64,000 bases of DNA from an uncultured Acholeplasmatales bacterium (GTDB lineage Bacteria > Bacillota_I > Bacilli_A > Acholeplasmatales > Anaeroplasmataceae). The notes beneath the pieces are model-generated. The model saw only the letters and a program-made list of their open reading frames with translations. It was not told the origin of the DNA and did not search any database. Every line of letters begins with the position of its first letter. Positions within the stretch are counted from its first letter, which is position 1. Location of the stretch: the NCBI GenBank assembly GCA_944324705.1, contig CALUXI010000003.1:1-64000 (forward strand), in the 5' to 3' direction. The position numbers were made by a program, and so were the translations under genes. Positions 8,131-45,057 of this stretch are shown one piece after another.

Positions 8131-8148
8131 AAGAGGCCTAAGCCTCTT
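8120..8148 (-). terminator. Terminator of the giant surface protein gene
   Basis: A perfect 7-bp stem (AAGAGGC/GCCTCTT, 8131-8148) with a 4-base loop is followed on the minus strand by CTTTTTTATTT. Its first arm includes bases of the stop codon at 8147-8149. Confidence 0.85.
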
Positions 8149-11100: not shown

Positions 11101-14100
11101 CATTATTTACTTCTTGACCATTATAATACCAACCAACAAAATAATAATTGTCTTTAGCTGGAATAGGCAAATTCGAAATAGTTCCTAAATAACTAATTTC
11201 TTGTGGCTTAATTTCATTACCTGATGCATCAACAACAGCTGAGCCATTTTCATCAGTAAAGCTTATTGTGTAATTGTTAGCCTTAAGAATAGCATAATAA
11301 ATCTTATTACCAGTATCAGTTGTACTTACATCAGTAACATAATAAATTCCATTTGGAGTAGTTGACCAACCTAAGAAACTGTAGCCAGGATCCAATTCTA
11401 AATCGCTTGCTACTGGTAAAGTTTTTCCTACACCATAAGTATAAGTTTCAAAGTCAGCAATATTATTAACTTCTACGCCTACATAAGTTATTTGATAAGT
11501 ATTAGGTGTAAAGTTAGCTTTTAAAGTTATACTATTATTTCCAGTTTTTAATAAATCTCTAATATGATCTTTAAAGTCATCTAAATTATTATAATTGCTA
11601 CCATTATAAGTATATGACCAATTACTAAAGCTATAACCTTCTAAGGCAAAACCACAAGCAGGTTCCTTAAAGCTATCAATTTTGTCATAAGTTACTATTA
11701 CACTAGGCATATTACCAGTTACTTCTTCATCACTAGCAAATTCAATTGTTAGGTGATTTGACCGGTATAAAGCAGTTAAATTAATAGTAGTAACATTATT
11801 ATCTTCAGCATAGCGGAATAATTCATTTACACTTTGCCCTTCTCTAAATGAAACTATATTCGTGTCATCAATAGCCCAACCTAAGAAAGTAGAACCTTCT
11901 TTTGAGCTTGCCTCAATTGTATCACCACTATCATATGTGACAAAAACCTCTTGATCATCATATTTTACGGTAATTGTTTTAGCCTCATATTTAGCATAAA
12001 GAGTAACACTTTCCGTAATTTCATTACCAAATACATATTTTGTTGTAAATTTTTCGTCACTATACCAACCTTCAAATTCATAACCAAAGAATGATCTTTT
12101 TTCTAATGAATCTTCAGTTAATATTAATTTACCTCCTGTATCTGGTTTTAAATCATAAGTTACTTCTTGTGTAATATTACCATAAACATACTTTAGCTTA
12201 ATAACTATATTATCGGTATCAAATGATAATGTCCATCTTTCTTCTTCGGCTGGTGTAGTAGTATTTTGTAATTGGAAACTATAAAGTACATAAGATACAT
12301 TATTAGATGCGTATCTAATATCTTCAGTAAATAATTTATTTAAAATAGAACGATCAGAATTATACTCGCTAACATATTTGATAGTAACTATATTTCCTTG
12401 ACTAATCTCAACTGAAGTACCTTCACCTAATACTTCTTTAATATTTTCTACAAACTTATTAATATATTCGCTAGGAACATTATTAATTATGATTGTAGTT
12501 ACAATATCTTTAGGTGTGTAGGTAGCATAAAGCTCTAAATCACCAGCATAAGTAGTAGGTAGATTACCATCTTCAGTCATCCAGTTATTACTATTATCAT
12601 AGCCAGTTTTGTTTGGTACAGCTATTAAACTTGGATTTTCTCCATAAATATATGTTTGTTGATCAATAATACTACTCGTTTCACCTATTTTTTCATAATA
12701 AGTAATTGTATAGGTATTAGCTTTCCAAATTGCATATAAGGTATCACTATCAATACTAGTATAAATACTGCCAGGTTGATGAATTTGGTCAGTCATACTT
12801 GGTTCAGTATTCGCATTTGTTGACCAACCAACAAAAGTATAATGTTCTCTTTTAAATAAGCAACTTGGAAGTTGAACAGAAATTTTTCCATCACTAATTA
12901 TATCTTCAATAGAATCCATTGTACCAGTGCCATTATTATTATTATCAAAGCTTAAAACATAACTATAAACAGCTGTAAGTGTAACTGTTTCTTCTATGCT
13001 TAAACCAATAATAGTTTGACCAGCATAATAATTATTTTTACCATCTGTCCAATATAAGAATTTATAAGGTGAGTTAGCACTTAAACTTGGTAATTCATAA
13101 GACTCATTATAAGCTAATGTTACATCATCAATTTCAGCACTACCATAACTCGTTTCTACTTCAAACTCAACCGTATATTCATTAGGTGTATAAACAGCAT
13201 AAACCACAATTTTGTTATCATCGTCAGCAGCCGCAATCAAATCATTGATATTATTAATTCTACCACTATCAGACATCCAATAGGCAAATTGGTAACCATC
13301 TTTATTAGGTTCTTGTAATAATTGATTATAGTCACTATTAACAGTAACATCATCTTTAGTACTTTCAGCATTACCGTTATCGTAATTGATTGTTAAAGTA
13401 TACTGAATTTCTTCAAATTTAGCTTCTAAAATTAAAGTATGATCAGTAGCTGCAGCAAGGTCATCAAAATTAATTTCAGTAATTGTGCGTTCTTGATATT
13501 CCCAACCATTAAACTTATAACCTAACTTAGTAACAGTTGGTAATTGATATTTACCATCTATAAAATCATTAATAGTTAAAGTTATATTACCATGATCATT
13601 GCCAAAATTAATTGTATATTTTATTAATTCCCATTTTGCAACTAAAATTAAAGACTCAGTAATTGGAGTGTCGTCAGCATTATTGGCATACCAACTTAAG
13701 AATTGATAACCTTGTTTACTTGGGTCATTAATTTGAGCATTTTTAATTGCTTCTGCATAAGTTGTACCATATTTAACTGTAACTGACTTAGACGTATTAT
13801 TTAATGCGTCATAGAAAATTACAACTAAATCGATTTTATCACACTTAGCATTTAATTTAATTGTCTTTCCATTAGATTCAGACTCTAATAAATACTCTTT
13901 TAAATTAGATACTTCAATGTAGTTAGTATACAATTCGGTTTCTTTGCCTTCTAAATAGAAACCAACGAACACTTCCCCATCGTTTGGTATTACTTCAGCA
14001 GCTAATTTTGCAAGTGATACAACTGTATCTTCAACTGTAAATGCCTCACTTAATTTATCATTATAACCTACATAATACTTTTTAGCTTCATAGAATACAT

Positions 14101-17100
14101 TTACTTCTCTTGTCGTATTATCTAAATTATCGCCAAATAAAGCTATTAATTGGTCAAATGTATAACTATCTCTAATTGAAATTTTATTATTAGCTAAACC
14201 AAAATCAACAATATCATAATAATCTATCGCAAATTGAGATAAATCAATTGAAATATCTTGATTATTATACATAAACTCTACATTAGATGTGAGATTATTA
14301 GATGTTATTTGTAATGTGAATGTTTTAGGTGTTGTTGCTAAAGTTATAGTTATAATATAAGTATCATTAGTTAAACTTATACCATAGTTTGAACCATCAC
14401 CATAATACTCTACTAGGTTTGGCATTCTATAATTATTATTACTGAATAAGTCAAAATTAGGAGAATAATCTAATTCATAATATTCTGGATGTTCTAAACC
14501 TAAATCTGTTAAACCTGGGTAACTAATAACTGCATTATAAGCATAAGAATGCGATGAAATAGTTTTTTCATTATATTTAAAATCTACTCTATAATTGATT
14601 TGATCGTAAACAGCTACAACAGTTACATTATGAGTAATAGTATCTTCACCAACTTCTGTACCATTTACATATGCCCAATGATTAAAGCTATAACCAGGAG
14701 CAGTCGTATCAACATTTTGTAAAGCCGCTATAATTGTACAACCATTTATACGACCATAATACCCCGTAATTTCAGCCGTTGTACCTTGGTTAATATATGT
14801 GATAGTATACTCTTTTGGCGTTGCAGAAGCTATTAATGTAACTTCTTCTGTAAATTTAATATTTTCAATTTTTTGTTGGTTACTATCTTTATATGTCCAT
14901 AAATTATCAAATGTATAACCTTTAATTGTTATATCTTGATAACCTTGAACGTAATATCCAGATGTGCTATTACCATAAGCTAAATATTGATTTTCAAAGA
15001 CTGTTATTTTATCATCAATACTATCCTTAATTTGAACAGTTATTACAATATATTCTTCAGTAGGAATACTAGCGGTTACTTCTAGATCATTTGCCGGCAT
15101 AGTACCAAAACTATAATTCTTTCCATTTTGGTTAAATACTATTAAACTACCATTTACATCAAGATTATTTAAATCACTTAAATCTGTATTATATGAAATT
15201 GTAAATATATTATCATTTGGCCATTCAGATATCTTTAAAGCCTCCAATATTTGATTTTTTATATCATCAGCGCTATCGCCACTAACATTAATAGTTAAAT
15301 TATATTCTATAGCTTTAAAGACAGCGACAAATTCCATATCACCTTTAACATTTTCATACTCATTAGTATAAAGCTTGTTATCAGTAGAGCCAACTATTTG
15401 CCAGCCACTAAATTCATAACCAGTAACAGGGTCAGGATTTGGTAAAGTTACACTACCACCATAAGGAACGTTAGGTATTGTTTCTGTATGATTACCATTT
15501 ACTAACGTTATATTATAAGTTTCAGCTGAATAAATAGCTTCAAATATTGTATTTTCTTTTAAGGTGTCAGAAATTAAAACATTATCTTGTCCACTATAGC
15601 TAATATATTGATAACCATCTTTAACTGGAGGAGTTGGTAAATTAGTATTAGCTCTAGTGTTGTAATCAACTGAAACAACATAATAACGTAATGTTTTACC
15701 ACTAGCATCACTAGCAGTTGTGATATGAGTACCACCAATATTTTCTAAGTAGTAAGCACCATTAGCTCTATTAACATCGTCCTCACTGAAATTAAAGTGT
15801 CCACCTTCTGTAGCATCAAAAGTTATTTCAATTGTTTTTAATTCCATCATAACTTGTAATGTTATTTCTCTTGTTTCACCTAATTTTTCAACAAAGTCAT
15901 TATTAATAGTTAATGACTCTACATCTGAATTTTCAATAGGATCTTTAATATAATTTAAATTATAGCCTTCGAAATTAAAGAATGTACCATCTAAAATAAT
16001 TACTTCTTCCCCATAAGTAAATGTTATACTATCGTGATTTAATGATGAAGCCCATAACTTATTCGCATTAATATCAAAACTAATTTCATAAGTTGCAGCC
16101 GTATAAGTTGCAGTAAGGCTTATACTATCGCCATCAATATCATTACGATTTGGAATAAAGATTTGACCATTTTCTAGTTCAACATCACCATATTTCCAAC
16201 CACTAAAATCATAACCAGGTTTAGTAGGTTTAGGTAAACTATCATAGTCTACTTCTTGTCCATAAGATAAAGAATAGCCACTTCCCTCTGCTTGTCCCTC
16301 ATCTAAGTTAAATTCAATATTATATTCTTTAGGAGTTAATTGAATTTCAATTCTAGTATAACCATTAACTTCAATTTTATCTTCTTGATTAATAATAATT
16401 TCCGTACCATTTATATAAATTTTAATATCATTATCATTATCATAGCCAGATACACTATAATTTAAATCATTTATATAAGTTTTTAAACTATTTATAATAA
16501 TGCTATTATCTTCTAACCAAGTAATACTTTCATCAACATCATTTGTATAAATAGTATTGCCTATCTTATTACCTAATGAATCATAAATATCAATACCATA
16601 AGAATTAAGAGCCCATGTTAAGGTAATTGTAGCATTTTTCCCTTCAAATCTAATGTTTGAATAATTAAATGGCTTTCCGTCAACAACAGCACTAAAACCA
16701 GTAAAGTTATAAGAACCAGCAGATTCTTTTAATGCATTTACTAAATTATTTAAAATATTAGTTGCATCTGACCCATAAGGAGCTTTCATAATAATAGTAT
16801 TATTACTTACTTCTAAAGTAATATTTGAATCATGTGAAATTTCGTTGATATTATTGATAATTTCAGCAAGATTAATATCAGTAAACATGCTATCTTCGTT
16901 TGTTATATCAACTGTTATTTCATACATTCTAGGCTGATATTCTACATATAGCTGTATACCACCAACAGGCATATTTGTTGGAATAGTTTGTTCTTCTTCG
17001 CTATCAACAATATAAACAAATCTATAAAATGTCATACCTTCAGGAGCTGTAATATTATTTTCATTAATATTATTAACAAATTCTATTGATTCTCTGTAAG

Positions 17101-20100
17101 GTATTGGTTCTTTAGTTTGCCATAAACCTTGATTATTTCTAACATAAGTTATATCTCCAATTTGCACTTCGCCATTTACAGCATCAGTAAAACTACCACC
17201 ATTTAGATATAAAGTTAAATAGTAAGATTCTGGCTTATATTCAGCTATTAGGGTAATATCTTGTAAACCTTCAACACCATAAGTGCTAATTAAATGAGAC
17301 ACTACATTAGCAATTGTCCAATCATCTAGTTCATATTCTTCATTAGCTAATTTTAAAATCCATCTACTAAATGCATAGCCTGGAATATTTGGATTTTTTA
17401 ATGAATCTGGTGAATTTATATTATATTCACTTAGTAAGTCAGTTGGTGCGTTATACTCTGAGCCATCTTCATTATATAAAGTACCATTTCCTTCTGCTAC
17501 AAACTCATAAGTAATTTGATAATTTATTGGTGTACAAATTAAATTGAAATCTAATTGAACTAAATTAGGTAAATTTACTTGTTCAGATGAATTATCATAT
17601 GTAAAAGTAAAGATATAACCACCAGCATTATTAGTACTAATACTAAAACTTGTTACTTTATATGTTTGGTTATCTAAAGTTATTTCCCAATGAGAGAAAG
17701 TATAAGCATTATTACCATTAATCGTTGGAAGAGTAATTGGACTGCCACCTACTTGTTCATAGGTATAATAATTTTGGTAATTAGAACCATAATTTATTTC
17801 AATATCACCATTAGCATAATTTTGTAAACCAGTTAAAACAATATCATATTGGCGATATTCCCATTGTGCATATAGTGTTTCACTAGTTGAAGACACTATA
17901 CCATCAAAGCTTTCTTCACCTTGTCTATCACGAGTCCAACCTGCAAAAACATAGTTTTCTCGACTAATCATTGCGGCTAAAGAACTTAAATCAATATTAG
18001 GTTTGTTAATATAATTAATTGGTTTAGATACTAATTCTTTACCATCATTTGTAATTTCAAATTCTATACCATCTATTGTGATAGAACCAGTTCCTTCAAT
18101 AATGCCACCATTTAAGTTAATTGTAATAACTACTTCATAAGTCGATTCAATCGGTTTGTCTCCTTCATCAGAAAGATACGTAACGACCACTGCATCCTTA
18201 GATAATTCAGCTACACTCTTTTTATCTTCTAATATTATACTTGTTGCCAAAGTATTATTATCTGTAAAACTTGCAAGTTGTGGATAATAATAGTATCCAT
18301 TTTCATCATTTGTGTATGACTTCCATTCCCAACCTGATTGGAAGAATGTTGAATCTAGCCCATTAGGTTTTTCATCATTTGGTTGACAATATAGATTAGA
18401 GGTTGCTAGTTTTAATGCATTTGATTTATTAAGTGGATAACCTAAAACTGATTCTGTGCCATTTTGTGGGTTAGTTTTATTATCACCTATTGCTTGAATA
18501 ATTGAATCAGTTGAACCTGTATAAGTAATATCCCCATCAAAGACAGCGGTACTGTAAATATTTGCGGAAACGCCCATACCTACTAAGCCACCTAGGAAGT
18601 TATAGCTATTACCATTATAAGTTAAGCCACCAAATTCACCGCTACTATTTTTACCATCAGCAGTTAATCTACCAACGTTTATTGCGTAACTTAGTTCTGA
18701 GTAAGCTAAGATACCTGCTATACCACCAATGTGGGTCCAAGCCTTAACTTCACCAGTATTAATAACGTTACTTACGGTTTTATTACCACCAACAAGAGAT
18801 GTCGTATCAATTGAAGTAACCCCTAAGATACCACCAGCTGCCCGGGCACCATATGTTGGATTATTTGTGTTATATTCATATGTATCGCCATTTTTAACAC
18901 CACGCCATGAAGCTGTAACACTACCAATATTCATAGCCGTTCTTAGCGTAGAGGCCCCATACATACGGCCAACAATACCACCAACATACGCATTAAATTG
19001 AGTTACTGTTTCAGTACTATTATTAACACCATAAGTGCTATTAATTGATAGACCAGCTGTGGCTTTTATATCACCACTATTAAAGGCGGTGCTAACTACA
19101 CTATCATCTCTAGTTTGGTCGTTTGTACTAAGCATAGTACCAATTATACCACCAACCCCAAAACGAGCTGTAACATTACCACTATTATAAGCTTCTTCTA
19201 AATCAACATGCCAAGATTGACCAATGATACCACCAGCACGAGAACCTTGATAAGCATATAAGATTTTATCTTCAGCCCAGTCCTCACTCATTTGAACTTC
19301 AGTTGCCTCAGGATCAGTACCTTTTGGAATATAAGTTACACTACCTGTATTAACTACATATCTAATTGAACCAGATGTATATTTTTCAGATTCAATATAG
19401 TAAGTACCAATTACACCACCGGCATTTAAACCATTAAAACTAATATTTGCTTCATTGCGTAAATTATAATAATTACCACCATAAGCTAAACCGATAATAC
19501 CACCAACAGAAATACGACCAGATACACTACCAGTCACTGTTAAATTAGAGATATTAGCATCTTTGACATAACCAAATAATCCTACAAAATCAACATTATT
19601 TGTATCATCAATATTAATATTAATAGTTTTATTATTACCATTAAAAGTACCACTAAACGGAGTTGAACCTTGTAATATTTCTTCAGAAACTATTGGATTT
19701 TGAGCTTCCGGAGAACTAAAGTAATTAGAAGCTAAATCCTTAATATTACCAATTACTAAATCTCCTTCAACTGTAATTGTTTCTTCTATACTATTAGCTA
19801 ATTCAAAGTAATAACCTGCATAAGAATTAGCTTCATATGCTAAGCCATCACCACTAATAGTATTATAATATTCTATATTTTCTAATTCATCACCATTAAC
19901 TGTTGCCGCTAAAACTTTTAGAGCATTAGCATCAGCAATGATAAAGGCTGTATCTTCAGAACGCCCAGTATGAGTTAAATAATCATTACCATCATAATCA
20001 AAAATAGATTTCCATTGAGCCTCTAAAACAAATGATGTAGCACCACTAGCCTGTGTTTGTAAATCAATAATAGCATCACTAGTTAATCCTATTCCATTAT

Positions 20101-23100
20101 TCCAAACTAAATCATTACCATCTGCATCTTGTGCATATAATCCGGCACTCAATCTAATTTTCCAACCAACGAAATAGAAACCGACTGCATAATAATTATT
20201 AATATTAAGTGTATTATTATCACCAATATTTTCATAATCAATTACTTGTGATTGCATATCCCCTTGGGCAGATGATAGACCACCATTATTAAATTCAAAC
20301 GTATATTTTAAAGAGCGCCAATAAACACCTAATTCAATTCGTTCAGCCTCAAAAGCAGAAACATCAATACTACTAGATATACCATAGAAATTATTACTAG
20401 TTTCACCAACACTAGGAACAACAACATAACCACCAACTTCATACCCAACTCGTGAAACAAGCGTTGTTAAAGATGCTAAATCAAGAGATGATTGAGAATT
20501 AATAAAGAAAACTAATTTTCCGTTTTGATATTCAATCGAATATTGAAGATTTAATTTTTCTTTAATTGCTTGTAATTCTTCTAATGAGTCAAACTGGTCT
20601 TCATTAATTACACCATTTTCTAAATAGTCACCTTTATTATATGTATTAGGAGTTGATCCTACTTCCCAAACATTTTTAAAGTCAACTGCTATTTCTAATA
20701 CATTATTCATAACTAAAGCATTATCAACTGATCTATAAGATAATGTATCATTAGAATTGTGCTTTTCTAATAAATTAAAATAGGAATTATATGCATCAGA
20801 ACCCTCTACTCCATTAGCTAATTTAATAATATCTCTATTTCTAATATAGTCATTGTCATTGACAATAATACCAATAGGACTAAAAATATTAGCTAAAGCG
20901 TAAGAGTTAATACTACCATTACCTTGCTTATTAATAGTACCTATTTCAATTGTAGAAGTTTTATTAGCTTCACCTAGCCAAATTTCGCCACCTTCAAGAA
21001 TAATATCAGTTATTGGGTCAGCGGCACTAGAATTATTAATAATCGCACCATCAAGAATATTTAAAGTAGCACCTGAAAAACCTAAATAAATATTACCAAA
21101 AGTAGCATCACCATAGTTTCCACTAATTTCCCCAGCAATATTAGTTTCACTAGCTGTTCTAGCTCCAACCTCTATAACACTAGCAAAACCATCTTTACCT
21201 TTATTATTAATTAATTTTGCTGTACTAGCTAGAGTAAATGTACCATTATTTTGTACCATTAAATGGCCTACCGATTGTGAAGAATTTCCATCAATTACAA
21301 CATTTTCTAAAGTTAGTGATGCGTCTGCTGCTATAGTAAAGAACGTACCACTTTCTCCAATATTAGATGCTAGAGTCAAAGTTTTAATTGTCTCATCAAC
21401 ACCTTTAATTGTTATATTATAACCACTAGGAATAGTTATAAAATCTTCTGTAGTAAACACTTTATTTTTAAGTATTGTGATAGTATAAGTACCTGAGTTT
21501 TTATTAATAGCCTCGCTAAGAGTTTCATATGTAGCACTACCTACTTGAAAATAAGCATTATTTTGTTCAGATTTTTCACTTAAAACTAAATCAGAACCAT
21601 CAACTGTAAGTTCATGCGAAGTTGAATCTAATAAAAATTTATCAATATCAACTGTAGCGCCATCTACAAATCTAACTACAGAATTTCCGTTTGTATAATT
21701 TTCGTTTTGATATCTTATTAAACCAACAATACCATCATCAGTTGTTAAAGTACTACTTACTTGAATTTGTGGATTTCCATTTGCCTTATCAGCACCATTT
21801 ATAACAATATTATTTGAAGAATCAACTCTTATGCCCCCACTTAAATAAATCATAGGGTCAGAGTTAACAGACCATTCGTTAAATGCATCACTATATATAC
21901 CATATCCATATGATGGCTCTAATTCATTATTATTATAGTTATATGCTCTATTATTAATAATAGTGCCGCCCTTTAAACATAATTTGTTCTTGTTTGCCGC
22001 TACAGTAGAATAGTTGGCAATACCACCACCATATTGAGCAGTATTATTACTTATAATAGCATCAATAATGGTAGCTGACTGACTCTTTCTAAAAGCAGCG
22101 CCATTATTATTTCCAATACATAAACCGCCACCATAACCACCAGCACCACTATATACATATGCCGTATTGTTAGAAATTTGGGTAACTGTTCCGGCATTAT
22201 CATCTAACGTTACGTTGGCTCCAGCCCCTCCATTAGCTGATGTGGCAATACCACCACCAAAGGTAGCTCTATTATTGCTAATATTACCACCAGCAATAGT
22301 AACATCTGATAACCATAAACAGATACCACCGCCATAACCGTAGACAAAATTACCAATTACATTACCATTGGTAATATTAATTTCAGAATTAACTCTAGCA
22401 ATTATTCCACCGCCATCAGCATTAGAAGCACTATCACCATGGTTATACCCAATCGTACCGCCTTCCATATTTAAAACACAAGAATCTGTTAAATTAACAC
22501 CAGCACCATCAGCACTATTTGCAGTATCGCTTCTACCACCACCACTCCAAATAGAATTATAGTTAATCTCACCATAATACATGTTAATAGTAGCATTATT
22601 TAAAGCTTGAATTCCGGCACCACCATAGTCGTTATTACCCTGAGCTACGGCATTATAAAGAATTTTAGCGCCATAAATGTTTAATATATTATTAGCAGAA
22701 CTATTATCTCCTAAACCTATACCACCACCAAATGGATTATTTCGATTACCAGCTGTAGCATTAACATTGTTTTGTAAAACTATTCCTCTAAATATATTTA
22801 AAGTAGAGCTTCCTTCAACCCCAATTAATGGAGTAGTTGAAGTGCTTTGATAATGATAAGCTTGTCTACCATAACCTTCACTGCCACTATAATTTGTTTC
22901 ATCAGGTGAATATAATTTATTAACAAAATAAACACTATTTCCACTACCACTAGTAGACCAATTAGCACCACCATCAAAAATTAGTTGATTACTACCAGCT
23001 GAATAATAATTACCTCCATCTATTAAACCGCCAAGGCCAAAATTAGCACCCTTAGAAACAGAAATATGATTATCACCAGTAGCCGTTACCTTTACATCTT

Positions 23101-23986
23101 TAATTGGAAAAATATTAACATTGTTAGTTATATTTAATCTATTAGACATAGTTATACTAGTGGCACTAGGATTTAAAATATAAGAATTGTTACTTAAATT
23201 TCCATTTAAAGCTTCTATAACCGTAGCTTCTTGTGTTTTAAAATTATAATCCTTAGTATATGTTAAATTAGAAGTGTCATTACTATCATATACTAATATA
23301 CCTTCACCACTTAAATAAACATTACTAATAAAACCATCATCTAAAATAATAGCCGCATCTTTATTAACTATTATATTTTTATTTGTTGTATTATCACTAT
23401 CAGTAGATGACAAAGTACCATTTAAAATATTTAAAGAACCATTAATATATAAGCTTTGCATATAAGATACATCAATAGTTCCGTTCAATACTAAACTATC
23501 ATCAATATTTAAAATAGGATAAAAATCGGTTGCTGATAAATTTTCAGTAACCCCTTTTATTTCGTGCTCTTTTTCTAAATTAACATTAGTGGACAAAGTT
23601 AATTCAGCTTGTCTATCGAGTGTAATATCACTACTAATTGTTAAAGTATAACCTAAATCAGTTTGTCCAATTTGAAAATCTTTTTCTTGGGACTTTATTT
23701 CTATATTTTGACCACTGACTAAAGTTACATCTTTAGTTAATTGTTCATCTTTTTTAAGATAAATAGTAGTTAGTGTTTCATAGTCAGCTACCGCATTTTC
23801 TATTGCTTCTTCAACTGAACTTATAACTTGACCACTCTCATTCGTTGTTTCTCCTATAATAATTTCTTCCTTATTTGTAAAATTACTATTATTTTCATCT
23901 TCAGCTTCTACAATTGATTTATTCAAGCCAATTAAACCTACTGTAGTAAGAAATATAGTAAATAAATATATTAGTTTCTTTTTCAT
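8147..23986 (-). CDS. Giant surface protein: beta-helix, GLUG and InlB-B/Listeria-Bacteroides repeats
   Basis: A single uninterrupted frame of about 5,279 residues. The true start is the ATG at 23986: GGAGGT lies 5 bases before it, and the GTG at 23998 only reads through that site. In order: signal peptide (1-33); Gly/Asn-rich right-handed beta-helix of the Pmp/adhesin kind (about 280-1080, repeated GGG..NN..YGGGI); one InlB-B-like unit (about 1215-1330); GLUG motifs (about 1430-1850, repeated GGIIG/GGIAG); then some 30 InlB-B/List_Bact repeats (about 1950-5030, GYxFxGWY...LYAKW); a proximal domain; one membrane helix (about 5180-5205); and a tail of about 78 residues that holds another such repeat. 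No LPxTG is present. Adhesin or surface-layer function is inference. It has its own promoter and terminator. Confidence 0.9.
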   Translation of the reverse strand: MKKKLIYLFTIFLTTVGLIGLNKSIVEAEDENNSNFTNKEEIIIGETTNESGQVISSVEEAIENAVADYETLTTIYLKKDEQLTKDVTLVSGQNIEIKSQEKDFQIGQTDLGYTLTISSDITLDRQAELTLSTNVNLEKEHEIKGVTENLSATDFYPILNIDDSLVLNGTIDVSYMQSLYINGSLNILNGTLSSTDSDNTTNKNIIVNKDAAIILDDGFISNVYLSGEGILVYDSNDTSNLTYTKDYNFKTQEATVIEALNGNLSNNSYILNPSATSITMSNRLNITNNVNIFPIKDVKVTATGDNHISVSKGANFGLGGLIDGGNYYSAGSNQLIFDGGANWSTSGSGNSVYFVNKLYSPDETNYSGSEGYGRQAYHYQSTSTTPLIGVEGSSTLNIFRGIVLQNNVNATAGNRNNPFGGGIGLGDNSSANNILNIYGAKILYNAVAQGNNDYGGAGIQALNNATINMYYGEINYNSIWSGGGRSDTANSADGAGVNLTDSCVLNMEGGTIGYNHGDSASNADGGGIIARVNSEINITNGNVIGNFVYGYGGGICLWLSDVTIAGGNISNNRATFGGGIATSANGGAGANVTLDDNAGTVTQISNNTAYVYSGAGGYGGGLCIGNNNGAAFRKSQSATIIDAIISNNTAQYGGGIANYSTVAANKNKLCLKGGTIINNRAYNYNNNELEPSYGYGIYSDAFNEWSVNSDPMIYLSGGIRVDSSNNIVINGADKANGNPQIQVSSTLTTDDGIVGLIRYQNENYTNGNSVVRFVDGATVDIDKFLLDSTSHELTVDGSDLVLSEKSEQNNAYFQVGSATYETLSEAINKNSGTYTITILKNKVFTTEDFITIPSGYNITIKGVDETIKTLTLASNIGESGTFFTIAADASLTLENVVIDGNSSQSVGHLMVQNNGTFTLASTAKLINNKGKDGFASVIEVGARTASETNIAGEISGNYGDATFGNIYLGFSGATLNILDGAIINNSSAADPITDIILEGGEIWLGEANKTSTIEIGTINKQGNGSINSYALANIFSPIGIIVNDNDYIRNRDIIKLANGVEGSDAYNSYFNLLEKHNSNDTLSYRSVDNALVMNNVLEIAVDFKNVWEVGSTPNTYNKGDYLENGVINEDQFDSLEELQAIKEKLNLQYSIEYQNGKLVFFINSQSSLDLASLTTLVSRVGYEVGGYVVVPSVGETSNNFYGISSSIDVSAFEAERIELGVYWRSLKYTFEFNNGGLSSAQGDMQSQVIDYENIGDNNTLNINNYYAVGFYFVGWKIRLSAGLYAQDADGNDLVWNNGIGLTSDAIIDLQTQASGATSFVLEAQWKSIFDYDGNDYLTHTGRSEDTAFIIADANALKVLAATVNGDELENIEYYNTISGDGLAYEANSYAGYYFELANSIEETITVEGDLVIGNIKDLASNYFSSPEAQNPIVSEEILQGSTPFSGTFNGNNKTININIDDTNNVDFVGLFGYVKDANISNLTVTGSVSGRISVGGIIGLAYGGNYYNLRNEANISFNGLNAGGVIGTYYIESEKYTSGSIRYVVNTGSVTYIPKGTDPEATEVQMSEDWAEDKILYAYQGSRAGGIIGQSWHVDLEEAYNSGNVTARFGVGGIIGTMLSTNDQTRDDSVVSTAFNSGDIKATAGLSINSTYGVNNSTETVTQFNAYVGGIVGRMYGASTLRTAMNIGSVTASWRGVKNGDTYEYNTNNPTYGARAAGGILGVTSIDTTSLVGGNKTVSNVINTGEVKAWTHIGGIAGILAYSELSYAINVGRLTADGKNSSGEFGGLTYNGNSYNFLGGLVGMGVSANIYSTAVFDGDITYTGSTDSIIQAIGDNKTNPQNGTESVLGYPLNKSNALKLATSNLYCQPNDEKPNGLDSTFFQSGWEWKSYTNDENGYYYYPQLASFTDNNTLATSIILEDKKSVAELSKDAVVVTYLSDEGDKPIESTYEVVITINLNGGIIEGTGSITIDGIEFEITNDGKELVSKPINYINKPNIDLSSLAAMISRENYVFAGWTRDRQGEESFDGIVSSTSETLYAQWEYRQYDIVLTGLQNYANGDIEINYGSNYQNYYTYEQVGGSPITLPTINGNNAYTFSHWEITLDNQTYKVTSFSISTNNAGGYIFTFTYDNSSEQVNLPNLVQLDFNLICTPINYQITYEFVAEGNGTLYNEDGSEYNAPTDLLSEYNINSPDSLKNPNIPGYAFSRWILKLANEEYELDDWTIANVVSHLISTYGVEGLQDITLIAEYKPESYYLTLYLNGGSFTDAVNGEVQIGDITYVRNNQGLWQTKEPIPYRESIEFVNNINENNITAPEGMTFYRFVYIVDSEEEQTIPTNMPVGGIQLYVEYQPRMYEITVDITNEDSMFTDINLAEIINNINEISHDSNITLEVSNNTIIMKAPYGSDATNILNNLVNALKESAGSYNFTGFSAVVDGKPFNYSNIRFEGKNATITLTWALNSYGIDIYDSLGNKIGNTIYTNDVDESITWLEDNSIIINSLKTYINDLNYSVSGYDNDNDIKIYINGTEIIINQEDKIEVNGYTRIEIQLTPKEYNIEFNLDEGQAEGSGYSLSYGQEVDYDSLPKPTKPGYDFSGWKYGDVELENGQIFIPNRNDIDGDSISLTATYTAATYEISFDINANKLWASSLNHDSITFTYGEEVIILDGTFFNFEGYNLNYIKDPIENSDVESLTINNDFVEKLGETREITLQVMMELKTIEITFDATEGGHFNFSEDDVNRANGAYYLENIGGTHITTASDASGKTLRYYVVSVDYNTRANTNLPTPPVKDGYQYISYSGQDNVLISDTLKENTIFEAIYSAETYNITLVNGNHTETIPNVPYGGSVTLPNPDPVTGYEFSGWQIVGSTDNKLYTNEYENVKGDMEFVAVFKAIEYNLTINVSGDSADDIKNQILEALKISEWPNDNIFTISYNTDLSDLNNLDVNGSLIVFNQNGKNYSFGTMPANDLEVTASIPTEEYIVITVQIKDSIDDKITVFENQYLAYGNSTSGYYVQGYQDITIKGYTFDNLWTYKDSNQQKIENIKFTEEVTLIASATPKEYTITYINQGTTAEITGYYGRINGCTIIAALQNVDTTAPGYSFNHWAYVNGTEVGEDTITHNVTVVAVYDQINYRVDFKYNEKTISSHSYAYNAVISYPGLTDLGLEHPEYYELDYSPNFDLFSNNNYRMPNLVEYYGDGSNYGISLTNDTYIITITLATTPKTFTLQITSNNLTSNVEFMYNNQDISIDLSQFAIDYYDIVDFGLANNKISIRDSYTFDQLIALFGDNLDNTTREVNVFYEAKKYYVGYNDKLSEAFTVEDTVVSLAKLAAEVIPNDGEVFVGFYLEGKETELYTNYIEVSNLKEYLLESESNGKTIKLNAKCDKIDLVVIFYDALNNTSKSVTVKYGTTYAEAIKNAQINDPSKQGYQFLSWYANNADDTPITESLILVAKWELIKYTINFGNDHGNITLTINDFIDGKYQLPTVTKLGYKFNGWEYQERTITEINFDDLAAATDHTLILEAKFEEIQYTLTINYDNGNAESTKDDVTVNSDYNQLLQEPNKDGYQFAYWMSDSGRINNINDLIAAADDDNKIVVYAVYTPNEYTVEFEVETSYGSAEIDDVTLAYNESYELPSLSANSPYKFLYWTDGKNNYYAGQTIIGLSIEETVTLTAVYSYVLSFDNNNNGTGTMDSIEDIISDGKISVQLPSCLFKREHYTFVGWSTNANTEPSMTDQIHQPGSIYTSIDSDTLYAIWKANTYTITYYEKIGETSSIIDQQTYIYGENPSLIAVPNKTGYDNSNNWMTEDGNLPTTYAGDLELYATYTPKDIVTTIIINNVPSEYINKFVENIKEVLGEGTSVEISQGNIVTIKYVSEYNSDRSILNKLFTEDIRYASNNVSYVLYSFQLQNTTTPAEEERWTLSFDTDNIVIKLKYVYGNITQEVTYDLKPDTGGKLILTEDSLEKRSFFGYEFEGWYSDEKFTTKYVFGNEITESVTLYAKYEAKTITVKYDDQEVFVTYDSGDTIEASSKEGSTFLGWAIDDTNIVSFREGQSVNELFRYAEDNNVTTINLTALYRSNHLTIEFASDEEVTGNMPSVIVTYDKIDSFKEPACGFALEGYSFSNWSYTYNGSNYNNLDDFKDHIRDLLKTGNNSITLKANFTPNTYQITYVGVEVNNIADFETYTYGVGKTLPVASDLELDPGYSFLGWSTTPNGIYYVTDVSTTDTGNKIYYAILKANNYTISFTDENGSAVVDASGNEIKPQEISYLGTISNLPIPAKDNYYFVGWYYNGQEVNNGNVYTYSSNINLVARFEEEPYSITINLDGGLINDSSDPITSIISYGSSIHNKLLELIGEQTPNKIGYTFLGWYYNGDKLTDAATASGDVTITAKWEANTYTINFDANDGTGYMASQTFTYDKEQALTSNTFTREGYTFLGWSTTYNGAVKYNDGQSVINLTSENNGSITLYAVWQVNTYTITFNTVGGSYIAPINLEYGKNISEHFTQSSQREGYTFVGWYTDSNYESKFDIDTTMPANNLVLYAKWEANTYTVTFDTNDGNSIEPLYYTVENRPNLPTPIKDGYRFIGWYLENGTTKVESLNGYHEDLDLVAHWELEKYNISYSLNGGTNNQSNPNTYSVKDVITFADPTREGYTFTGWYLKDDTKITSTEEYTGDLVLYARWEANTYTVTFDTNDGNSIEPLYYTVENRPNLPTPTKAGYRFIGWYLEKGTIKVESLNGHYEDLTLTAHWSEALEYNIIYNLNGGTNNSSNPNSYTVNDSITLGEPTRVGYKFLGWYKGNIKIETISNLTGDLVLEAKWEVMSYTISYDTTISDMVLEDKTIEYGASFGDLVNPLELEFGLKFVGWYYNDTLITKDMIFNYESDITLTAKVEDAIYNVVYDTNGGINSENNKTTISVKEDVPFILNPATKIGYKFIGWSLKDGTIVKEINKDVLTNATNYVIELKAEYEVNTFTVTYVDTDGNVLKTITNVPYGSMATTFIPTKDGYIFDAWYKDGSIYDFNTPITDNLTLVAMYKIREVSITVNINGEDIKVTVTSVDGTGLQADTNIIIKLVENETNLDIVSQLLNDFGVLSRLYEIKLVDSKGNEIVPTSEIRVSLSLPNETLASDKTYTIVNVADDFSGYEEFKADINGDNISFYTTHFSYYGIVITDKVLDLTWLWILLGVVGFLLIQVVIILVIKNRKYHIRFITKGDIKVKELKYKKNEYIALPKPKRLGYRFVGWYLDREFKYPANMKTMPNENLVLYARWVKDPINIGFVVKK
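9850..10348 (-). repeat. Recent tandem duplication inside the giant gene
   Basis: Bases 9850-9937 and 10261-10348 are identical over 88 bases, offset by 411 bases (137 codons, in frame). The proteins around them (units with YTVTFDTNDGNSIEPLYYTV) are nearly identical, so this is a fresh in-frame repeat duplication. Confidence 0.85.
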
Positions 23987-24055
23987 ACGAACCTCCACTT
24001 AAGCACAAAAAAACAAAAACAATTGACGTATTTTTTTGCACAGTAATCTACTTTT

Positions 24056-33237: not shown

Positions 33238-33352
33238 TTTACACCTCCGTAAAAATTTAAAAAATCTTCTCTACCGCATAGTAAAGAAGATTTAATCTTT
33301 AACTACCTCGGTAGAAATTAAGTGCTTAAGCACACCTACTGTCTTAGGTTAA
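33238..33352 (-). promoter_or_regulatory. L10 (rplJ) leader with attenuator hairpin
   Basis: The 115-base rplA-rplJ gap reads, on the minus strand, AGACAGTAGGTG ... TTAATTTCTACCGAGGTAG, which matches the conserved ribosomal protein L10 leader. After it, AAATCTTCT (33285-33293) can pair with AGAAGATTT (33262-33270), followed by TTTAAATTTTTA, an intrinsic-terminator-like arm just before the ribosome site. L10 binding would favour stopping. That mechanism is known for the family; here it is inferred from the pattern. Confidence 0.8.
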
Positions 33353-34054
33353 TTATTTACCTGTAGATGCAATAGTATCTGGGTTAACTTTAACACCAGG
33401 ACCCATTGTAGAAGCTACAGAAACATTTTTAATGTATGCACCCTTTACAGTTGAAGGGCGAACTCTCATTAAAGTATCATAAACAGCTCTTAAGTTTTGA
33501 GCTAACTTTTCAGCACCAAATGATACTTTACCGATAGTCATTTGAATATTACCTACTTTATCAGGACGATATTCAACTTTACCGTTTTTAATCTCTTTGA
33601 TAGCTTTAGCTACATCCATAGTAACTGTACCAGTTTTAGGGTTTGGCATTAAACCTTTAGGACCTAAAATACGACCTAAACGACCTAATTCACCCATCAT
33701 ATCTGGTGTAGCAACAATAATATCAAAATCAAACCAACCTTGTTGAATCTTTTGGATGTATTCTGAATCGCCAACATAATCAGCGCCAGCATCCTTAGCT
33801 TCTTGTTGTTTTGCACCACGGCATAATACTAAAACACGACGAGTTTTACCTGTACCATTAGGTAACACGATAGCACCACGGATGTTTTGTTCAGCTTTAC
33901 GTGGATCAAGATTTAAACGGAATGCTACATCAACAGAAGCGTCAAATTTGACGATTGATGTTTTGCAAGCTAAATCTAAAGCTTCTAAGGCGTTATAAGC
34001 TTTATTTACATCAATTAACTTAACGGCTTCTTGGTATTTCTTTCCTCTCTTCAT
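33353..34054 (-). CDS. rplA: Ribosomal protein L1
   Basis: L1, 233 residues, the full normal length, forms the mobile L1 stalk on 23S rRNA and represses its own mRNA. Conserved blocks are [40 protein letters not shown] and the ending [18 protein letters not shown]. It starts with ATG at 34054 after TAGGAGG. It is separated from rplK by 71 bases that contain a copy of the 23S L1-binding sequence, so L1 probably controls both genes. Confidence 0.97.
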
Positions 34055-37722: not shown

Positions 37723-37746
37723 CAAAAAAAGCCAAAAAGGCTTTTT
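37720..37746 (-). terminator. Terminator of the P-type ATPase gene
   Basis: AAAAAGCC and GGCTTTTT arms (37726-37746) with a 5-base A/T loop and a long T run on the minus strand. Confidence 0.8.
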
Positions 37747-40700
37747 AAAATTTTGATAATACACTTTGTATATATTTAATAGTTCTCTTTAACCAAGGTA
37801 CAAAACCAGTTAATAAACGCATTAATGGTGCTGAGGCCAAACATAGAGAAACTAAAATTAAGATAGCTGGAATTGATAGATGTAAAACAGTACCACCAGT
37901 TTGAATACTATAATCAGCTTTATAATCAGTTTTCAAATCATTAATTGTTAAATAACCATCTTCACTTACATTAACTTGGGTAGTAGAATCCCCACCAATA
38001 TTAGTTGCTATATATTCAGTATATCTACCATCGATAATATAATGATTAGCTGCAGTTATTTCAATACTTGGTTTAACAATATTAATATTAGTGTAATAAA
38101 TTTGAGTTCCACTTTCTGTATTTAATGTAATATTATAATTAGCCCCACTAGCTCTAATTAATCTATCACTATAAACTTCTTGTTCATTTTCTGAATCAAT
38201 TAAATCTTTTAAACTAGCAAAATCACCCAAATCAGATAACTTTATATTAATTGGATTAGATAAATTACCTTCAAATTTATAGCAAGCAATTTTAGTTGCA
38301 TTTAATATCAATTTATCATCGCTATCATAAGTTATACTAGGTTCTGCTAAAGTATAACCACAAGGAACACCATCTTTTGTTCCAAAGATTTCTTCATCAT
38401 TGACTAAAACTTTTAAAGTTTCAAGATCTAATTTAACTGACTCAATTTTTTCAAAATTAGGAACAATATCAGTTTGAGTACCATCAATATAAATAAAACC
38501 ATTATGAATAGAAATAGTTGGTAATATTGAATAATCAATAGGTGCATATTCCTTATCAGGACTGCTAGATGAATAAATCTTAACATTACCATCTTCATCA
38601 TATTTTAATTCAATTTGTGTTACATCATTAGTAAATTTATTAATATCTGTGTTATAACCACCAGCGTATAAATAACTATCTTCATCCATACTCAAATTAG
38701 GGGTAGGGATATACCAATATTCACCATTTAATGTTACTGGTTGAGCCCCTTGACCAGAATCAATGATTAAGGCTCCATTATTATTAGCTATAGCTGTAGG
38801 TAGACTTGTCATACCTGGATAAGCCTTAGTATCATAAACTACCCCATCTATAACAAAATTATAATCCTCTGATATAGCAATTGATGGGATACTATCAAGA
38901 CGTTTAATTTCTACACTATCAGAATTATATTCCATAAATTTAAAGATTGGTCTTATCTCAAATAAACTAGGTAAGAAAATAATACATAAGACAAATAAAC
39001 TATAAGAAAGCGTACAAATTAATTTTCTTAACTTATTAAATGGTCGACATACTTTAAATAAAACCATTAAACAAGTATTAGTAGCAACAATAATAATAAT
39101 CGTTGAAGAGGTCAGGAAATCATAATTTAAATATTCAACCAATTTAAAAGTAATCATCGAACATATTAAAATTGTAATAGCGCCCGGCAGTGCTCCCTTT
39201 AAAATATTTGGTAGGAACCGCGAATCAACTTCATTATTATTCGGCTCTAAGACTAAGAAGAATGATGGAATACCTACAACAAAGAAATCAATAATTGATA
39301 ATTGAACAGTACTAATAGGATAAATACCACCACTATTTAAAGCTTGAATAGCTAATAAAAAACTAAATATTGTTTTAGTTAAAAATAAACAAGCAACCCT
39401 AGATACATTATTAATAACTCTTCTACCTTCAGCTACAACTTTAGGCATAGATGAGAAATTAGAATCAATTAAAACTAAGTGACTTGCATTACGGGCTGCT
39501 TCACTACCTGAAGCCATAGCTATTGAACAATCAGCTTCTCTTAAAGCTAAAATATCATTAACACCATCACCTGTCATAGCTACAGTCTTACCAGCTTCTT
39601 TTAAAGCTTTAACTAAAATACGCTTTTGATCAGGTGATACACGACCAAATACTGTATATCTAGTAGCCGCTCTCGCAACATCTTCATCAGACATTCCATC
39701 TAAAGAAATACACTCATTAGCATTGTTAATACCAGCTCTTTCACTAATTTTAGAAACTGTCAACGGATTATCACCAGAGATAACTTTTACTTCTACACCA
39801 CTTTCTTTAAAGTAGTTAATAGTTTCAATAGCATCAGGCCTAATATTATCTTCAATTAAAATTAGAGATACAAGTTTAACCGGACTATCTGGTAAAGTTT
39901 CATTTTCAATAAAGCCATCACGATGAGCTAAGGCTAAAACACGATAACCTTGCTTAGAATAACCATCTATATCTGTTTTAAAATTATTAAATTCACTTCT
40001 TAAAACAAACTCAGGTGCCCCCATAATAAAGGTTCCATAACGTTCAAAACTTACAGCATTAAATTTCCTTTGACTTGAAAAATGAATTAAACCATTAGAT
40101 TTTATTCGCTTATTTGAGCCAAATTTTTCTTCTAAAGCTCTTTGAGTTAAATTATTTTCTTTTAATGTATTTAACATACCATTGATTACAGCTTTAGTTG
40201 AAATGCCAAAATTATTTTCATAATCTATCGAATCTTTAACGGACATTGTACCATCTGTAATAGTACCTGTCTTATCAAGGCACAAAACATTAACTCTAGC
40301 AAGCATTTCAATACAATATAATTCTTGAACCATGACTTTATTTTGGGCAAGTCTAATTACCCCAACTGCCAAAGCTACACTCGATAACAACATTAATCCA
40401 GATGGTATCATTCCAACCATCGCTCCAGCTGTCTTTCTAATAGCTGTTACATAGTCAACCCCATTAACCATATATTGCATATAAAATAATGTTAAACCAA
40501 TTGGAATAATGATGATTGCCATTATAATGATAATATAATTTAAAGAACGCAATAAATCAGATTTCGGTTTCTTATATAATTTGGCTTCCCCAGTTAATCG
40601 AGAAATATAATTATCCTTACCAACTTTATTAACTCGAGCTCTACAATTGCCACTAACTACAAATGAACCAGAATATAAAGTATCCCCTGCTTTTTTTAAG

Positions 40701-41548
40701 ATAGCATCACTTTCACCAGTTAATAGACTTTCATTAACTTCAACACTGCCATCAATTAAAATAGAGTCAGATGGAATTTGCTTACCGGCTTCAAGAACTA
40801 AAATATCATCTAACACTACCTCAGATACTGCAATCTCACTTTTTTTCTTATCTCTTATTACAAAAGCCGTCGGTGCTTGCATCAAAGATAACTTATCAAT
40901 AATATTTTTAGCTTTTATTTCTTGAATGATACCAATAATAATATTTGCTGTAACAATAACCACAAAGAATAAATCTGTAAATGCTCTAACAGATATAATA
41001 AATCCAGCAATTGTAAATGTTAAAATATTAAAGAAAGTTAAAACGTTAGATAAAATAATTTTCTTAATTGATTTAGTAGAACCAGTTTTAGTGGTATTTA
41101 CTAAACCAGCACTTTCACGTTTGTCAACTAACTCTGAAGTTAAACCTTCATCAGGATTAACCTCATAACGAGTAATTACTTTTTCATCTTTTTTCTCTTT
41201 TTTAGCTATTTTTTTCTTTTTCTTTTCTGTTATTTCTTTTTTCTTGTTTAAAAACTTTTCAATTTTAGAAGATAATTCAATTGAAAAATGATTTTCAGAG
41301 TCTTCTTTAGATTCTTCCTTCTTAGGAGTTTCTTTAACTTCTTCTTTTTTCAAAGGTTCTTTAATCTCTACTTTTGGTTCTTCTTTTTTAACCTCTTCTT
41401 TTACCGCATCTTTATTATCTTCAGAAACTGTAAAAAGATTTACAGTTTCTTCTTTTTTTTCACTATTTTCTATAACTTTAGAAGTCGCCGACTTTTTTCT
41501 TTTTCTAACTGGTTCTTTACTAACCTCTACTTTATCGTCTTGACTCAT
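37745..41548 (-). CDS. P-type cation ATPase with N-terminal charged arm and extracellular M9-M10 insertion
   Basis: A P-type ATPase of 1,267 residues against about 780-900 for relatives. The core has LLTGES (about 278), the phosphorylation site DKTGTITDG (about 424), KVISGDNPLT and GDGVND (about 662). The M4 motif is IPSGL rather than IPEGL, as in CtpE-like calcium or cation pumps. Two additions stand out. Residues about 1-150 are Lys/Glu-rich and lack membrane segments. Residues about 870-1215 form a soluble region between the ninth and tenth helices, which should face outside; it repeats patterns like IDG-x-Y and PSI-x-I. It overlaps mrnC by 17 bases. Ion and ectodomain ligand are unknown. 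Confidence 0.85.
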   Translation of the reverse strand: MSQDDKVEVSKEPVRKRKKSATSKVIENSEKKEETVNLFTVSEDNKDAVKEEVKKEEPKVEIKEPLKKEEVKETPKKEESKEDSENHFSIELSSKIEKFLNKKKEITEKKKKKIAKKEKKDEKVITRYEVNPDEGLTSELVDKRESAGLVNTTKTGSTKSIKKIILSNVLTFFNILTFTIAGFIISVRAFTDLFFVVIVTANIIIGIIQEIKAKNIIDKLSLMQAPTAFVIRDKKKSEIAVSEVVLDDILVLEAGKQIPSDSILIDGSVEVNESLLTGESDAILKKAGDTLYSGSFVVSGNCRARVNKVGKDNYISRLTGEAKLYKKPKSDLLRSLNYIIIIMAIIIIPIGLTLFYMQYMVNGVDYVTAIRKTAGAMVGMIPSGLMLLSSVALAVGVIRLAQNKVMVQELYCIEMLARVNVLCLDKTGTITDGTMSVKDSIDYENNFGISTKAVINGMLNTLKENNLTQRALEEKFGSNKRIKSNGLIHFSSQRKFNAVSFERYGTFIMGAPEFVLRSEFNNFKTDIDGYSKQGYRVLALAHRDGFIENETLPDSPVKLVSLILIEDNIRPDAIETINYFKESGVEVKVISGDNPLTVSKISERAGINNANECISLDGMSDEDVARAATRYTVFGRVSPDQKRILVKALKEAGKTVAMTGDGVNDILALREADCSIAMASGSEAARNASHLVLIDSNFSSMPKVVAEGRRVINNVSRVACLFLTKTIFSFLLAIQALNSGGIYPISTVQLSIIDFFVVGIPSFFLVLEPNNNEVDSRFLPNILKGALPGAITILICSMITFKLVEYLNYDFLTSSTIIIIVATNTCLMVLFKVCRPFNKLRKLICTLSYSLFVLCIIFLPSLFEIRPIFKFMEYNSDSVEIKRLDSIPSIAISEDYNFVIDGVVYDTKAYPGMTSLPTAIANNNGALIIDSGQGAQPVTLNGEYWYIPTPNLSMDEDSYLYAGGYNTDINKFTNDVTQIELKYDEDGNVKIYSSSSPDKEYAPIDYSILPTISIHNGFIYIDGTQTDIVPNFEKIESVKLDLETLKVLVNDEEIFGTKDGVPCGYTLAEPSITYDSDDKLILNATKIACYKFEGNLSNPINIKLSDLGDFASLKDLIDSENEQEVYSDRLIRASGANYNITLNTESGTQIYYTNINIVKPSIEITAANHYIIDGRYTEYIATNIGGDSTTQVNVSEDGYLTINDLKTDYKADYSIQTGGTVLHLSIPAILILVSLCLASAPLMRLLTGFVPWLKRTIKYIQSVLSKF

Positions 41549-43295: not shown

Positions 43296-44999
43296 TTATT
43301 CTAAATAACTAGCAATTAATGCAGATTGACCATCATAATAAGTATTATATTTTTCTTTAAATGCATCATCAACCGTAACATAATAAGTTGGAACACTTAC
43401 CCTATAACTTTCTTCTCCAGATAAAGTAGGAGTAATTTGATTTATAGAAGTAATTTGATTTTCTTCTAAATATTCTGTTGTTATTTCTTCACTAGATCTA
43501 ACTGCAAATATTTCACCATATGTTACTTTATATTCAACTTTTTTTGCTGGTTCTTCAGTTGTACCATCTTCACTACCATCAGTAGCTTCTTCAGTAGCTT
43601 CTACTAAAGTCGGACCTGAAATTGTTAACCCATTTAATTTTACTACTGAATCTTTAACTTTAATATAATTACCTAATTCAGCAATTAAACCAGCTACATT
43701 TGTTGTATATACAGGAACTGCTTCAACTTCAATTGAACCAAAGAAACCAACTGTTTCGATTTGTCTAGTTACATTATCATAAGTTGAACCAGCAAAACCA
43801 CCAACATTTAAATTATAAACTTCAAGGCCTTTATCGATTGTAGCAGATTCTGCCTTTTGTGTAGTCACTTTAATATTAGAGCTTGCTACGCAATTAGAAA
43901 TAGCTGAAGCAGATGTGCCAATAAAACCACCAACATTAATATTTACAGGATCAGTAATGGCTGCTTTAATTTGTTGATTTACATTAATAGTTGTTGTAGC
44001 TTCATTACCACTAATTTTATGAGCTCTTCTTACTGAACTAGCAAAACCAGCTTCACCAATCAAACCACCAACATTAGCTTCATGTCTAGCTTCTACATTA
44101 ATTGTTACATTACTAATCTTAGAATTTGTAACTGCAATACCTTCCTTGCTACCACCAACATAACCAACTAAACCACCAACATTTTGTTTATAAGTTAATG
44201 TATAAGCTGTTGAGTTAGCATTAATTGTACCACCAACAATCTCACAATTATCAATGACACCTGTATTATAACCAACTAAAAGGCCACAATTCATTTCACT
44301 TGTTCTTTCAGTAGTTAAAGTTATATTTTCAATTTTCAAATTCTTAATTTCACCATTATTAACTCCAAATAAACCATTGTATTGATTATTTGAACTTAAT
44401 TCAATATTTTTAATAGTGTGGCCTTGACCATCAAATCCACCTTCAAATTGACGGCTTGTTGTAGTAAACATAGGTTCTACTTCTACATCTGTAAAATCTA
44501 AATCTGCATCTAATTTATAAAAGCCTTCCCTATCATTAGCCATGTCTAAGAATTCTTCTGTATTATTAATTAAAATAGGATTTTCCTCTGTACCTACATC
44601 ATTAGTTTCTACTAATTCATCAAATAAAGTATAACTTCTACTATCAATAGTAACTGTAATTCTAACAGTATATTGTGTTTCTTCATCCAAATCAGTAAAT
44701 ACTAATTCATCAGCCACATAATGATTACCACTAGTAGCTTCGTCATCTAAATTAAATGATTGTGAATCTAGTTGACCATTAACTTCGCTACCATCCATAT
44801 CATAAATATATGCATATGGTGTGTAATCACTAAAAATTTTACCTGTTGCATCATCAAATTCAGCTTGTAAAGTTATTTTATTATTACGTGCAACAACATT
44901 AACACTTGTCTTAATATCACTATTGGCATTACAACTACTTAAAGTTACAATTGCTAAAAGAGTTGTAAAAAATATTGCTACCTTTGTAAAAAGTTTCAT
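43296..44999 (-). CDS. Lipoprotein with GLUG-motif domain
   Basis: A lipoprotein of about 567 residues. The start is ATG 44999, with GGAGGT 4 bases before it. The signal ends in LSSC, a lipobox. Residues about 35-130 look like a fibronectin-type beta-sandwich (TQYTVRITVTID). From about 140 a GLUG region runs: ENPILINNTEEFLDMA, FDGQGHTIKNIELS, YNGLFGVNNGEIKNLKI, NVGGLVGYVGGS, NVGGFIGTSAS, NVGGFAGSTYD. The same motif family appears in the giant protein (about 1430-1850). A Thr/Glu-rich stretch precedes the C-terminal 70 residues. GLUG domains occur in adhesins and IgA-peptidase relatives; adhesion here is inference. Confidence 0.82.
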   Translation of the reverse strand: MKLFTKVAIFFTTLLAIVTLSSCNANSDIKTSVNVVARNNKITLQAEFDDATGKIFSDYTPYAYIYDMDGSEVNGQLDSQSFNLDDEATSGNHYVADELVFTDLDEETQYTVRITVTIDSRSYTLFDELVETNDVGTEENPILINNTEEFLDMANDREGFYKLDADLDFTDVEVEPMFTTTSRQFEGGFDGQGHTIKNIELSSNNQYNGLFGVNNGEIKNLKIENITLTTERTSEMNCGLLVGYNTGVIDNCEIVGGTINANSTAYTLTYKQNVGGLVGYVGGSKEGIAVTNSKISNVTINVEARHEANVGGLIGEAGFASSVRRAHKISGNEATTTINVNQQIKAAITDPVNINVGGFIGTSASAISNCVASSNIKVTTQKAESATIDKGLEVYNLNVGGFAGSTYDNVTRQIETVGFFGSIEVEAVPVYTTNVAGLIAELGNYIKVKDSVVKLNGLTISGPTLVEATEEATDGSEDGTTEEPAKKVEYKVTYGEIFAVRSSEEITTEYLEENQITSINQITPTLSGEESYRVSVPTYYVTVDDAFKEKYNTYYDGQSALIASYLE

Positions 45000-45057
45000 T
45001 TTAACCTCCATCTATATATAAAGCAAAATTTTGCTTGCTTTTTCATTGCTGTGTTTT

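Follow-up and report, generated by a model that had tools for sequence, protein, structure and literature searches.

Why should a cation pump carry a domain of several hundred residues in the loop that joins its last two membrane helices? The question is raised by a 1267-residue open reading frame on the reverse strand of the window (the whole stretch of 64,000 nucleotides that was analysed), in which the original prediction had seen a P-type ATPase with an ectodomain of ~345 residues in its M9–M10 loop. The protein belongs to the P-type ATPases, as it contains the motifs DKTGT425, TGES277, and TGDGVND659 and gives Pfam matches to the E1-E2_ATPase and Hydrolase domains, and no NCBIfam equivalog matched it at cutoff. 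Its hydrophobicity profile has ten peaks (at residues 169, 190, 339, 380, 718, 748, 786, 816, 843, and 1220). The peaks at 843 and 1220 correspond to M9 and M10, respectively, and the insert (residues ~868–1217) is therefore the M9–M10 loop, so that the architecture stands as it was first read. In a ten-helix P-type pump, this loop is located outside the cell.

Table 1. Positions of the pump gene and its parts in the window, and, elsewhere in the window's genome, of an ApbE gene with the same hairpin unit
Feature	Position	Strand	Remark
P6-like (CtpE/family 23) cation-translocating P-type ATPase gene with M9–M10 ectodomain	37745..41548	(-)	1267 aa
Lys/Glu-rich cytoplasmic N-terminal arm, residues 1–115	41204..41548	(-)	poorly conserved
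P-type ATPase core, residues 116–868 (A, P, and N domains, M1–M9)	38945..41203	(-)	
M4 PSGL motif, residues 382–385; S383 at the SERCA E309/CtpE PEGL position	40394..40405	(-)	
DKTGT phosphorylation motif, residues 425–429	40262..40276	(-)	
M5 Lys725, probable built-in counter-ion	39374..39376	(-)	invariant 132/132; PMC10654040
M6 Asp754, acid replacing the M4 acid in this branch	39287..39289	(-)	
M9 helix, residues 843–861	38966..39022	(-)	
Predicted extracellular ectodomain, residues 868–1217, ~nine β-hairpin units and one small helical insert	37898..38947	(-)	
Hairpin unit SIPSIAISEDYNFVIDGVVYDTKAYP	38816..38893	(-)	
Hairpin unit ILPTISIHNGFIYIDGTQTDIVPN	38453..38527	(-)	
Hairpin unit VKPSIEITAANHYIIDGRYTEYIATNI	37997..38077	(-)	
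Hairpin unit STTQVNVSEDGYLTINDLKTDYKADY	37910..37987	(-)	
M10 helix, residues 1220–1238, followed by a basic C-tail	37835..37891	(-)	
ApbE lipoprotein with hairpin unit	G000:C9:61619-62899	(-)	locus L237; relatives L236, L238–L243

Pump class and the position of its membrane acid

Among named organisms, the nearest relatives of the pump are family-23-like proteins from Firmicutes and Actinobacteria, mostly 34–52% identical, and the other P-type pumps of the window's genome are ~28–31% identical to the query pump. CtpE of family 23 is a Ca2+ importer in Mycobacterium (PMC5615198), and its family (TCDB family 23) has been proposed as the P6 ATPases, which have an N-domain without the conserved ATP-site Lys (PMC10654040). 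By identity and in a tree constructed without CtpE itself and without non-P6 outgroups, the pump clusters with family-23 pumps over other P-type classes. It shares with CtpE and the P6 ATPases the core architecture, the M5 Lys, an N-domain lacking the usual Lys of KGAPE (MGAPE in its place, in 'TFIMGAPEFVL'), and an M6 in which Val758 takes the SERCA D800 position, occupied by Asp in Ca2+-efflux pumps (the M4/M6 register was checked by alignment with LMCA1). It differs from them in M4, which has PSGL where CtpE has PEGL, and in the Asp of M6, the whole branch having P[S/A]GL in M4 together with Asp or Glu in M6; the large ectodomain and the N-terminal Lys/Glu arm are further differences. We therefore place the pump in the P6 group as a divergent branch, not among the standard P6 pumps. 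The likeliest candidates for the transported ion are Ca2+, Mn2+, and similar divalent cations. Metal riboswitches (yybP-ykoY and M-box) were not found near the pump gene in the window or at 20 loci, and control by such elements was accordingly rejected. Elsewhere in the window, a ribosomal protein L10 leader (RF00557; 71 bits) is located at 33250–33366 on the reverse strand.

The M5 Lys is kept throughout an alignment of 132 P6-like pumps, and an acidic residue is found either at the M4 PEGL position (53/132) or at the M6 position 754 (74/132), with five pumps having neither and none having both. Seven changes of the acid state are required on the tree of these pumps by parsimony, and the exclusion between M4 and M6 is therefore not one inherited event. 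Lysines of TM5 serve as built-in counter-ions in other P-type classes (PMC10654040), and we infer that the acid of M4 or M6 pairs with the M5 Lys or with the ion. A single membrane acid placed in M4 or M6, opposite to an invariant Lys, bears directly on the mechanism of ion binding and movement in P6 pumps. The M6 acid is present in all of the 32 pumps with a long M9–M10 loop, which may reflect shared ancestry.

The outer loop and its repeat units

Net charge is about −31/−32 for the insert and +5 for the tail after M10, as the positive-inside rule expects of an insert on the outside. AlphaFold predicted hairpin repeats both for residues 110–1267 with 43 aligned sequences (pLDDT, 81.8; pTM, 0.57, at which the placement of the domain relative to the pump is poorly fixed) and for the insert alone with 30 aligned sequences (pLDDT, 87.3; pTM, 0.77). 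The units have the pattern EEE-turn-EEEE-turn-EEEEE and number about nine, with one small helical stretch in addition. Topology, charge, and the AlphaFold models thus agree, and the predicted location of residues ~868–1217 outside the cell, not in the cytoplasm, is confirmed on these three grounds. A structure search with the ectodomain gave only local hairpin similarity to propellers, and no credible match to the whole domain was found in the PDB or viral structure libraries (TM about 0.1); with no whole-domain relative among solved or viral structures, function is not readable from the fold.

Matches of the unit profile A5 to the window arise partly by construction and were used only for the positions of units. 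Against the inserts of the window's family, a profile built solely from units of a second Bacilli family (f19) scored 9.9 bits on average, far above the scores of their shuffled (−3.5 bits) and reversed (−3.8 bits) copies, so that the repeats are not due to chance; with the hairpins of the AlphaFold models, the β-like units of the original prediction are well borne out. Window-family inserts also align to the f19 insert profile (hhalign E, 2.4e-8). The unit motif of the f19 insert, PxIxIxxxGxWxLDGxxTxIxA, is clearly visible, and this insert scores 28.9 bits against DUF4988 (PF16378), 1.1 bits under the gathering cutoff of 30 bits, while Pfam and PHROGs gave no credible match to the window insert, DUF4988 included. 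The insert repeats resemble DUF4988 and are of a related type, but do not count as members, the Pfam cutoff being missed. They share with the DUF4988/'GENGNWYIDGVDTG' lipoprotein surface repeats, also present in the window's own genome, the motif PxIxIxxxGxWxIDGxxTxIxA, an extracellular setting, and the tandem arrangement, but the copies in the pump sit within a loop without collagen-like flanks, and the window-family insert is too diverged for a Pfam match.

The unit is not confined to the pump. In the window's genome, a lipoprotein with Listeria–Bacteroides repeats contains it as 'TPVITIGENGNWYIDGVDTNI'. An ApbE FMN-transferase lipoprotein of the window's genus has a clean, in-place insertion of ~80 residues with a hairpin unit (404–435 aa, versus 319–344 aa in other genera of the family, where it is missing), and units are also found within Amidase_2 domains in genomes of f19 and a further family (f4). 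Because it recurs in the pump, a lipoprotein, ApbE, and amidases, the unit is a general extracytoplasmic surface module that is re-used across proteins.

Several other carriers and large surface proteins were encountered. Three loci (L185, L193, and L212) encode N-acetylmuramoyl-L-alanine amidases with units inside Amidase_2, identified by Pfam for L185 and L212 and by eye for L193. At G018:C4 ~70943–72010 (L189 and L199), hairpin units are located in a leucine-rich-repeat-like surface protein with an open frame of 12480 codons. The window itself contains, at 8147–23998 on the reverse strand, a 5283-residue open reading frame whose start resembles a signal peptide and which has a C-terminal membrane helix and a List-Bact-like ending; it was read as a giant surface protein and adjoins two open reading frames of rpoB/rpoC size.

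The charge and distribution of the loop bear on whether the ectodomain is an antenna or sensor, in which the acidic hairpins would capture the transported cation on the outer side and either gate the pump or supply it. Every insert examined is net negative (−11 to −41), the turns are rich in Asp, Glu, and Asn (such as YDEDGN), and the ectodomain is confined to the branches with the M6 acid. However, the invariant columns of the insert are Tyr, Ser, Pro, Leu, and Thr, with no conserved acidic residue, the same hairpins are found in the non-pumping ApbE, amidases, and lipoproteins, and M9 and M10 lie at the periphery of P-type ATPases. We therefore regard such an ion-binding function as unlikely.

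Distribution, gain, and selection

The ectodomain is carried by 48 of the 55 genomes of the window's family (f1). A query including the insert matched 49, one of them (G013) only at M10 and with a short loop, and several of the six genomes without a match are incomplete or cut by contig ends. Other families of the order have insert-less versions of 743–945 aa, in which the M9–M10 loop has 8–21 residues. The locus cysS-mrnC-[pump]-rlmB-sigH is common to insert-bearing and insert-less genes, from which it follows that the ectodomain was gained in place in the pump gene. Directly upstream of cysS, the window has a gene for a lipoprotein with GLUG motifs (43296–45011, reverse strand). Two further variations were noted among insert-less and related pumps: in family f5, a tandemly duplicated insert-less pump (L047; G055:C32), and an insertion of ~40 residues in the M7–M8 outer loop of the P6-like pump in genus g8 of family f2 (L041–L043).

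The insert-bearing sequences of f1 form one clade (support, 0.998), with loops of about 290–490 residues and a variable number of units. In f19, the genera g102 and g136 and two more genomes have an M9–M10 insert of ~255–275 residues, and a shorter loop, of about 80 residues and comprising two units, is present in a single genome of family f9. Insert presence requires three changes on the tree, apparently implying three separate gains of a loop domain in Bacilli. The search for the same architecture thus recovered nearly all f1 genomes, genomes of f19, and one f9 genome, and the ectodomain pump is a clade-wide variant, not a single oddity. No description of such a pump insert was found in the literature searched, the coverage of which was incomplete.

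A Lys/Glu-rich arm at the N-terminus had also been predicted, as part of a device combined with the ectodomain. The arm exists (about 115 residues in the window pump, 47% Lys plus Glu), and f1 arms are mostly 77–155 residues with 31–49% Lys plus Glu and are poorly conserved. Since insert-less relatives in f2 and f3 also carry it (about 60–107 residues; f5 pumps are mostly without it), arm and ectodomain are not specifically linked, and the arm was ruled out as the partner of the ectodomain.

Within pairs of sequences, dN/dS is 0.12–0.49 for the insert, versus 0.013–0.12 for the core; purifying selection acts on the ectodomain, but its evolution is several-fold faster than that of the core and its constraint far weaker. 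In some pairs, the cores are 94–98% identical and the inserts just 50–63%. These values and the clade-wide retention have been weighed against two readings. A cis-acting chaperone or stability cap resembling a β-subunit, comparable to the subunits of Na,K-ATPase, P4 ATPases, and KdpB, would agree with retention and purifying selection, but the sister pumps and the f1 pump of G013 are without the domain, and such hypervariability is unlike an intimate subunit interface; we consider this role rather improbable. Fast evolution, the variable number of units in the loops, and the insertion of the module elsewhere (ApbE) would suit a near-neutral expansion of surface repeats that is tolerated without serving any specific role; this reading is in turn very unlikely, given a dN/dS well below 1 in all pairs and the presence of the domain in nearly every complete f1 genome, small wall-less ones included. 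As a point against a purely surface-related role, the near-universal retention in f1 and the purifying selection could also indicate a function bound up with the pump.

The pair L015/L017 shows the opposite pattern of identity: a segment covering the insert (~3700–5150 of L015) is 96–100% identical between flanks of 85–94%, and dS is 0.019 in the insert and 0.52 in the core. This block fits an apparent recent recombination of the ectodomain between species, and could also be an assembly effect, being seen in a single pair of metagenome-assembled genomes.

In the window's genus (g1; eight genomes), neither PBP transpeptidases nor FtsW/RodA were matched, whereas both are present in g3, g6, g7, and part of g5. 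The ectodomain is kept in wall-less and walled genera alike, and peptidoglycan as its sole ligand is thereby ruled out. The same survey suggests an apparently repeated loss of the cell wall within f1.

The ectodomain as a probable surface tether or mask

On balance, the ectodomain of this housekeeping pump probably serves as a tether or a mask at the cell surface and takes no working part in transport. The M9–M10 loop has been replaced in place by an acidic chain of ~300–490 residues, made of hairpins from the general surface module. According to this model, the chain would protrude from the membrane and hold the pump to an outside partner (another repeat-bearing surface protein, a glycan, or an exopolymer) or, alternatively, mask the outer face of the pump. 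The chain would play no part in the transport cycle, and its hypervariability would reflect pressure at the cell surface. The original prediction had proposed a pump tied to surface sensing or to an outer partner. The latter half is reasonable, since the repeats belong to a module of surface proteins. No sign was found of sensing coupled to pumping. Pumps that carry the domain and pumps that do not share one core and one locus, and the domain evolves, and has apparently been exchanged, separately from the core.

A broader proposal, which we put forward only tentatively and regard as doubtful, is that the hairpin module repeatedly invades loops of unrelated surface-exposed proteins in these Bacilli (pump, ApbE, amidase, and lipoproteins), and builds up on the pump a hypervariable chain that recombination swaps between species. 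If so, a housekeeping ion pump would double as a diversifying surface structure. One gene at one locus, found both with and without the domain, offers a clean natural comparison for asking what purpose the exterior of a pump serves.

Where a P-type pump has a large extracellular part, this is normally a separate subunit. The β-subunit of Na,K-ATPase, CDC50, and KdpC resemble the ectodomain considered here in that a large extracellular part is attached to a P-type pump. In the pumps described here, the outside part has become an integral piece of the pump, gained in place on what appear to be three occasions in Bacilli, and it varies in the manner of a surface antigen while the core remains steady. 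Unlike the β-subunit, CDC50, and KdpC, the ectodomain is fused into the M9–M10 loop, is repetitive and hypervariable, and is missing in close relatives.
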